Assembly: GCA_016214035.1 (NCBI GenBank)
Contig: JACRPF010000020.1
Span: forward strand, 194,800-258,799
Reading direction: 5' to 3'
Source of the DNA: Spirochaetota bacterium
GTDB taxonomy: Bacteria; Spirochaetota; Brachyspiria; Brachyspirales; JACRPF01
DNA length: 64,000 nucleotides
The position numbers and the translations under genes are program-made. How positions within the stretch are numbered: position 1 is the stretch's first letter; the number at the start of each line of letters is the position of its first letter. Shown here piece by piece: positions 579-8,137 of this stretch. Under the pieces are notes generated by a model. That model was not told the origin of the DNA, searched no databases, and worked only from the letters and a program-made list of their open reading frames with translations.

Positions 579-1616
579 ATGACCGCACTTCCCACGGTAA
601 AAGACATAGCCGAACGGGCGCAGGTGTCAATCGGCACCGTGGACCGTGTGCTTCACGGACGCGGGCGCGTTGCCGAAGAAACGCTTGTCCGCGTCAACAA
701 TGCCGTCCGTGAACTGGGGTACAAACCGAACATGTTCGCGCGGCATCTTTCGCTCGCCCGTCCGCGGCGATTTGCGGTCGTCATGCCGAGACCGGGGCAG
801 GACAGCGGCTATTGGGGGCTTGCGGTCAACGGACTTCGCCGTGCACGGCAGGAATTATCGGCGTTCGGCGCGGAAGTGCACCGCTATCATTATGACCGAA
901 CAGCCGCCGGTTCGTTCGAACGAGCCATATCACTCGCCCGTACCGAGGGCGCGGATGCGTATCTGGCCGCCTGCGTACGCCCCGGCGAGGGCGGGCGCGT
1001 GCTCCGCGGCTTGAAACAGCCATACGTCCTTTTCGATTCGGAACTTCCCGGCACGAAACCGCTGGCATATATCGGTCAGGACGCGTATGCGAGCGGACGT
1101 CTTGCCGCGCGGCTCATGCAGCTGATAGCTTCCGGAAGCCCCGCAGCCGTCATCCGGACGATGTCGGATGATTTTCATATCAGCGCCCGTGTGCGCGGAT
1201 TTTCAGAATACTATGCGTCGCACGGGCACTCGTCGCGCATAAGGATTTTCGATATCCCCGCGGACGGCGACGAACGCAGTTTCGGACGCATCTGCGGCGA
1301 GATAACCGCGGCGTCTCCAAGTTTCCGGGCGATCTTCGTGAGCAATGCCGAGGCGCATCGCGTTGTCCATTATCTGCGGCTTAAAAAGCGCGCCCGCTGT
1401 TCGGTGATAGGCTACGATCTTATCGAGGCGAACGCCCGCTGTGTCTCATCAGGTACAGTCGACTTCATAATCGATCAGCGTCCCGACGTGCAGGTATATG
1501 AGGGCCTTATGCTCCTCTGCCGCACAACGATACGCAAAGAAAAGCTGAGACGCAGACGCATCATCATGCCGCTTGATATCATCACGAAAGAAAACGTTCA
1601 GTTCCACCATTCATAA
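579..1616 (+). CDS. LacI-family transcriptional regulator of the arabinose operon
   Basis: 345 residues. The N-terminus has the LacI helix-turn-helix (TVKDIAERAQVSIGTVDRVLHGRGRV, in pieces, residues 6-31) and hinge region, followed by a periplasmic-binding-protein-like sensor domain from about residue 62 to 330. The start at 579 follows a GGAG ribosome site. The gene is first in a run with ribulokinase, ribulose-phosphate epimerase, a secreted glycosidase-like protein and an isomerase, so the effector is probably L-arabinose or a breakdown product. This is an inference. The palindrome at 551-566 is its likely target. In many Gram-positives this job is done by a GntR/LacI hybrid AraR; here the DNA-binding domain is LacI type. 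Confidence 0.88.
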   Translation: MTALPTVKDIAERAQVSIGTVDRVLHGRGRVAEETLVRVNNAVRELGYKPNMFARHLSLARPRRFAVVMPRPGQDSGYWGLAVNGLRRARQELSAFGAEVHRYHYDRTAAGSFERAISLARTEGADAYLAACVRPGEGGRVLRGLKQPYVLFDSELPGTKPLAYIGQDAYASGRLAARLMQLIASGSPAAVIRTMSDDFHISARVRGFSEYYASHGHSSRIRIFDIPADGDERSFGRICGEITAASPSFRAIFVSNAEAHRVVHYLRLKKRARCSVIGYDLIEANARCVSSGTVDFIIDQRPDVQVYEGLMLLCRTTIRKEKLRRRRIIMPLDIITKENVQFHHS

Positions 1617-7918: not shown

Positions 7919-7947
7919 TTTACAAATCAATAGAAATGTTGTATACT
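7919..7947 (+). promoter_or_regulatory. Strong sigma-70-type promoter of the micro-gene
   Basis: TTTACA (7919-7924), a 17-nt spacer and TATACT (7942-7947) lie 29 nt before the micro-gene's start codon. The unit is therefore transcribed independently of the arabinose operon. Confidence 0.7.
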
Positions 7948-7976
7948 GATGTTAACATAATTTGAGGAGGGAGCCT

Positions 7977-8036
7977 ATGGCTACCAAGAAGAAAGCAACG
8001 AAAAAAACCAAGAAGACCGCGAAAAAGAAAAGATAG
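7977..8036 (+). CDS. 19-residue Lys/Thr-rich micro-protein
   Basis: The peptide is MATKKKATKKTKKTAKKKR: 11 Lys, 1 Arg, 4 Thr, 2 Ala and the initiator Met, with no acidic residue. A near-perfect GAGGAGGGA ribosome site lies 4-12 nt upstream. It has its own promoter (7919-7947) and is followed by a hairpin (8055-8081). This complete expression unit argues strongly that it is a gene and not chance. The composition resembles the tails of histone H1-like or HU-type nucleoid proteins, so binding to DNA, RNA or polyphosphate is plausible. No function is established by the sequence. Confidence 0.7.
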   Translation: MATKKKATKKTKKTAKKKR

Positions 8037-8054
8037 TTTTTTTCGCATGAACAT

Positions 8055-8092
8055 GGGCGGCGTCGGCAACGACGGCCGCCCTTCTTCATTTA
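8055..8092 (+). terminator. Rho-independent terminator with a GCAA tetraloop
   Basis: GGGCGG-CGTCG pairs with CGACG-(G)-CCGCCC around a GCAA loop, 11 bp with a one-base bulge, followed by a modest T-rich tail (TTCTTCATTT). It lies 18 nt after the micro-gene and before hisH. Confidence 0.65.
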
Positions 8093-8108
8093 TTGGGTAC
8101 TATCCTGT

Positions 8109-8137
8109 TTGCATTTTTTTCCCGGACACGGTATAGT
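8109..8137 (+). promoter_or_regulatory. Promoter of hisH, placing the start codon at +1
   Basis: TTGCAT (8109-8114), a 17-nt spacer and TATAGT (8132-8137) end only 6 nt before the ATG at 8144. There is no Shine-Dalgarno sequence, so the mRNA is probably leaderless. Confidence 0.6.

Follow-up and report, generated by a model that had tools for sequence, protein, structure and literature searches.

Lys-rich proteins resembling histone H1 are already known, and so are ribosomal proteins that are tiny and basic. H1-like proteins with Lys/Ala-rich tails include chlamydial Hc1/Hc2 and Bordetella BpH1, and the ribosomal proteins bS22 and eL41 are of mixed Arg/Lys composition. The phiX174-type J protein, a very short and basic viral peptide, neutralises the packaged DNA; it is Arg/Lys/Pro-rich and has a capsid-binding C-terminus. 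The K/A/P-rich repeat tail of AlgP binds DNA, as do KPAA-repeat peptides, and AlgP localises to polyphosphate (polyP) granules and alters granule spacing (PMC9239181). The bS22 of Borrelia (BB0822), about 30 aa in length and 61% Lys/Arg, came to light through cryo-EM density, having had no genetic annotation, and only one of its residues varies across Borrelia (PMC10618245). For free-standing genes encoding K/A/T peptides of 11-30 aa, no description was found in the searchable literature.

A gene of this type occupies 7919-8096 on the plus strand of the window, the term used here for the whole 64,000-nt stretch of spirochaete DNA that was analysed (from genome G000). It begins with a sigma-70-type promoter (7919-7947), in which TTTACA (7919-7924) and TATACT (7942-7947) are separated by a 17-nt spacer and make 10/12 consensus matches; about 1.4% of 110-bp stretches drawn at random from the 64-kb window contain a promoter as good. 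The leader GAGGAGGGAG (7948-7976), read from the sequence, contains the ribosome-binding site, with a GGAGG Shine-Dalgarno (SD) motif at 7966-7970 (in extended form GAGGAGG, 7964-7970), 6 nt 5' of the ATG at 7977. The ORF (7977-8036, stop TAG at 8034-8036) has 19 codons and translates as MATKKKATKKTKKTAKKKR (K10 T4 A3 R1 M1; 58% K+R). It is followed by an intrinsic terminator (8055-8096), a GC-rich hairpin (8055-8081; -22.8 kcal/mol by folding) with the stem GGGCGGC/GCCGCCC plus GUCG/CGAC and the loop GCAA, after which comes TTCTTCATTTATTGG, with TTCTTCATTTATT directly 3' of the hairpin. The hairpin is absent from the output of a simple terminator scan of the window. An earlier note on this DNA had described a full expression unit at 7919-8092, comprising a consensus promoter, a strong ribosome site, a short ORF and a GCAA-loop terminator, and each of these elements was found in its place. 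Its figures of 19 codons, 4 Thr and 1 Arg for the peptide stand, and its 11 Lys and 2 Ala are corrected to 10 Lys and 3 Ala.

The ORF is not expected by chance. The window has 29 ORFs of 12-40 aa led by an SD, and MATKKKATKKTKKTAKKKR exceeds all others in K+R content, at 58% against 29% for the runner-up. When the intergenic region was dinucleotide-shuffled 20,000 times, SD-led ORFs of 15-40 aa with K+R of 50% or more never arose, and 100 shuffles of the whole window gave a mean of 0.01 such ORFs.

Comparison with a relative from a different genus of the same family (G001) shows the unit to be real, conserved, protein-coding and independent of its neighbours, with its amino-acid composition kept and its residue order drifting. 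G001, the sole other genome of the family in the set, gave a match to the unit in a search of 61 genomes. This match spans the -35 box to the 3' portion of the ORF, and the alignment carries on through the terminator tail; the unit in G001 thus retains promoter, leader, SD, ORF and terminator, and the flanks beyond this block are not alignable between the two genomes. The two units do not differ in the promoter hexamers, in the 17-nt spacing between these or in the leader stretch GTTAACATAATTTGAGGAGGGA, and the leader as a whole is near-identical. The G001 ORF, MATKKKKKAKKTTKRKKR, has 18 codons (18 aa) compared with 19 in G000, and in this one pair of genomes, which makes up the codon-level comparison within the family, the changes consist of synonymous substitutions (GCT/GCG, AAG/AAA), K/A/T exchanges and in-frame indels, with the frame kept and the order of residues scrambled. 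Stops or frameshifts beside a conserved hairpin had been named beforehand as the pattern that would point to a small RNA, and the opposite was found, all ORF indels being multiples of three. The ORF MATKKKATKKTKKTAKKKR is very probably translated. In the G001 terminator, the GNRA loop is kept (GCAA to GUAA), the stem has paired changes (GUCG/CGAC to GCCG/CGGU), and the tail reads TTTATTGG, while the RNA between ORF and terminator is unconserved in the alignment of the two genomes.

The RNA of the unit folds far more stably than shuffled versions (z = -4.9), as does that of G001 (z = -5.4). In the predicted fold of the full transcript of both genomes (L002 1533-1685 in G001), the SD GAGGAGG (7964-7970) pairs with the C/U-rich tail after the terminator (8081-8087), and the finished RNA might mask its own ribosome site. 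The start codon is located inside a 4-bp hairpin (7972-7982) in both genomes, AGCC-UAU-GGCU here and CGCC-AAU-GGCG in G001, with one paired change.

In G000, the unit is flanked on one side by a gene encoding the C-terminal domain of an L-fucose isomerase and on the other by hisH, which has its own promoter-like site at 8108-8137. The expectation that relatives would carry the unit at this araA-like/hisH site did not hold, as in G001 it lies between csrA and gltX (both named by sequence), with csrA and a 54-aa ORF upstream and the convergent gltX-like gene after it on the opposite strand. The unit is absent upstream of G001 hisH, and in G000 other genes follow csrA. Because the neighbours differ between genera, the unit, with its own promoter and terminator, is an independent gene with a product acting alone, and the neighbouring genes hold no consistent functional hint. 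The 54-aa ORF (MQELVSNGIITRDHLERAKLIQRQRGG...) right after csrA is apparently conserved in both genomes of the family (L002 1254-1418; L201 about 1250-1413, minus strand).

Two pattern searches, with the ORFs read out, identified free-standing ORFs of this type in 4 of 393 spirochaete genomes (G000, G001, G040 and G032), and under the patterns used the gene is patchy in the phylum. The G040 ORF is MAKKAKKKAKKKAKK (15 aa) and the G032 ORF is MAAKKKAKKAKKKK (14 aa; contig DYKD01000024.1, labelled Brevinema andersonii), the latter also having a strong terminator. All four ORFs have a promoter with 10-11/12 matches and 17-nt spacing no more than 110 bp upstream, and sites that good occur in 1-5% of random 110-bp stretches. 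A fifth spirochaete genome (G189) contains a 50-aa, K/A-rich version, for which no Pfam match was found. A BLAST match in G043 and other pattern matches were discarded as chance or as N-terminal tails of larger proteins. Near the G040 micro-gene, a short ORF contains a Ser-His repeat run (SHSHSHSH...; L003 about 1822-1880). No curated family was found for the peptide, which at 19 aa is under the 20-residue minimum of profile libraries, and phmmer, run with a doubled copy of the peptide, gave no match in the PDB. An HMM from the four-member peptide alignment, which holds too little information, finds G001 only (E 0.07). Rfam has no family at the unit in the window or in 14 related loci.

Similar micro-ORFs were found in other prokaryotes. 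An exact-pattern scan of 84,980 prokaryote species gave at least 118 loci and at least 82 complete ORFs of fewer than 30 aa, although the pattern demands an early stop and these counts are not a measure of prevalence. The class is defined by complete, SD-led ORFs of fewer than 30 aa with more than 45% Lys+Arg, and includes MATKKKATKKTKKTAKKKR at 19 aa and 58% K+R. Among the matches listed are Bradyrhizobium, DPANN archaea, Acidobacteria, Deltaproteobacteria, Nitrospirae, Omnitrophota and others. A hairpin with a T-run was present no more than 120 nt downstream of 40 of the 83 micro-ORFs among the matches listed, compared with 28 of 478 long ORFs from the same loci, and when Bradyrhizobium-type groups were left out, the corresponding counts among these matches were 15/42 and 9/231 (Fisher P about 3e-8); terminator enrichment at the micro-ORFs listed is about 14-fold. 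The RNA flanks of the similar ORFs elsewhere are unrelated.

The K-rich micro-genes of Bradyrhizobium are of two types, of 28 aa (L085, L076, L082 and others) and 22 aa (L075, L098 and others), the latter usually ending in the terminator GGCGGGC..GCCCGCTTTTT. Variable sites in the 28-aa ortholog group fall at third (7), first (2) and second (0) codon positions, and at least one Bradyrhizobium genome carries the 22-aa type together with the start of the 28-aa type. The same scan also yields K/A repeat proteins of 55-130 aa with histone-H1-like composition. No recurrent neighbour family was found among 70 genes beside K-rich micro-ORFs; two decarboxylase genes there, a PvlArgDC and an Orn/Arg decarboxylase (L150), hint at polyamines but are too few. 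In L150 (2667-4146), a 19-aa K/A/T micro-ORF lies directly 5' of an ornithine/arginine decarboxylase gene, a single case from which a polyamine link is possible. Since low-complexity K/A/T sequence cannot prove homology, the likeness among distant members may be convergent, including that of the G032 and G040 ORFs to the unit of the family.

The same pattern applied to IMG/VR gave 103 viral loci with 52 ORFs of fewer than 35 aa, mostly of MAKKKK...K types. In two T7-like contigs (L236 1261-1332 and L240 3143-3220), poly-Lys micro-ORFs of 19-21 aa lie between the genes for head scaffolding and major head proteins, and related isolated Pelagibacter phages have other small ORFs at that spot (43 aa and basic in HTVC019P, 73 aa in HTVC105P). 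An assignment of the small viral contigs to Microviridae was dropped, as those contigs that were tested code for head and tail proteins of the T7-like type. The poly-Lys micro-ORFs of T7-like (Pelagibacter-phage-like) contigs resemble the window gene in being short (17-31 aa), Lys-rich and led by a strong SD and in their MAKKKK start, but they use Asn/Asp spacers and are placed inside a head-gene cluster, whereas the window gene is an independent unit with Ala/Thr. BLASTN of the unit itself against phages gave no match. The J protein is likewise very short and basic, but differs from the window peptide in being viral, Arg/Lys/Pro-rich and equipped with a capsid-binding C-terminus.

By composition (K10 T4 A3 R1 M1), the window peptide falls with the Lys/Ala-rich, low-complexity H1-like proteins. 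Like bacterial members of that group (the AlgP and PhaF tails), it consists of Lys spaced by Ala/Thr, is highly positively charged and probably disordered, and tolerates changes in residue order. By contrast, those proteins are much longer, and AlgP has an N-terminal helical domain, while the spirochaete peptides are free-standing, of 14-19 aa, and lack Pro or any other domain. We consider it moderately probable that the unit is a monocistronic gene in its own right, encoding a tiny polycation that would bind DNA or RNA by charge in the manner of an H1 tail, and by analogy peptides of this type most likely act as miniature H1-tail-like counter-ions for DNA or RNA. In the proposed mechanism, the unit would be strongly transcribed and translated, its RNA ending at its own terminator, and the product would probably be an abundant polycation with a net charge of about +11 over 19 residues and no fold of its own. 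The peptide would bind DNA, RNA or both by charge and sequence-nonspecifically, acting like one segment of the histone H1 C-terminal tail or like a genetically encoded polyamine, screening phosphates and promoting compaction or condensation. Nucleic-acid binding, compaction, disorder, abundance and any phenotype are here what we infer. Conservation of the whole unit, the G032 and G040 versions, recurrence across phyla with terminators, the third-position bias and the phage head-cluster ORFs all count for the polycation, and a composition kept while order is scrambled fits a disordered, nonspecific polycation better than a protein fitting a single pocket. Electrostatic DNA or RNA binding is judged likeliest by analogy with the K/A/P tail of AlgP and KPAA peptides (PMC9239181).

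Other products of the unit can be envisaged. Borrelia bS22 (PMC10618245) is a precedent from the same phylum for a product like bS22, eL41 or bTHX, a small protein, ribosomal or associated with the ribosome, that would plug an rRNA pocket and be missed by gene callers, and it shares with the window peptide a tiny size and about 60% basic residues; the strong promoter, SD and terminator would also suit so abundant a product. This role is nevertheless unlikely, as the COX24/bS22 profile (PF08213) gave nothing above cut-off in G000, G001, G032 or G040 (a weak place of 14.4 bits in G000 lies elsewhere in the genome), presence in 4 of 393 spirochaete genomes is too patchy for a core ribosomal protein, and the Lys/Ala/Thr-based peptide is scrambled in order between two genera, against one variable residue in Borrelia bS22. 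Binding to polyP or storage granules, like the H1-like tail of AlgP, which is found at polyP granules (PMC9239181), would be a natural consequence of charge for a Lys-rich peptide, but neither an adjoining polyP-related gene nor a conserved partner accompanies the unit and sequence cannot separate polyP from general polyanion binding, making this specific role improbable.

The shortness of the unit, its strong hairpins, their stability relative to shuffles in both genomes and the paired changes in the terminator are also what a regulatory small RNA would display, or a dual-function RNA with an incidental or secondary ORF. Against this, the ORF is kept through in-frame indels and synonymous changes, the RNA from ORF to terminator is unconserved, Rfam has no match and similar ORFs elsewhere have unrelated RNA flanks. 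We therefore give the RNA reading little probability; frame conservation contradicts a purely RNA function, and a dual role is possible. In its classic layout, an attenuator likewise has a short ORF dominated by a single amino acid with a terminator after it, and a Thr/Lys-rich sORF in Sinorhizobium has been proposed as an attenuation leader (PMC10117765). A Lys/Thr leader peptide attenuating a downstream gene is nonetheless highly unlikely here, and is largely refuted by G001: hisH has its own promoter-like site in G000, and the neighbours in G001 are csrA and gltX, with a convergent gene after the unit in place of a co-directional target, which excludes a hisH attenuator or leader.

Beyond the nucleic-acid-binding polycation favoured for the window, we tentatively suggest, as a possibility short of an even chance, that free-standing K/A/T genes of 11-30 aa may form a widespread layer of genetically encoded polycations ('micro-protamines'), nearly all of them unannotated, across bacteria, DPANN archaea and phages. 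These would tune the charge and compaction of nucleic acids as polyamines do, with the difference that transcription controls them, and some phages would carry a head-cluster version. Tiny low-complexity proteins evade gene callers, BLAST (through its complexity filter) and HMMs (with too few bits), and the whole class has therefore perhaps been overlooked. The window unit is a clean case, kept by two genera from promoter to terminator at genomic sites that differ. Should peptides of this kind bind nucleic acids in vivo, both bacteria and archaea would possess minimal equivalents of the H1 tail, and it would become testable whether a lone polycation of 15-20 residues can shape the nucleoid, ribosomes or condensates.
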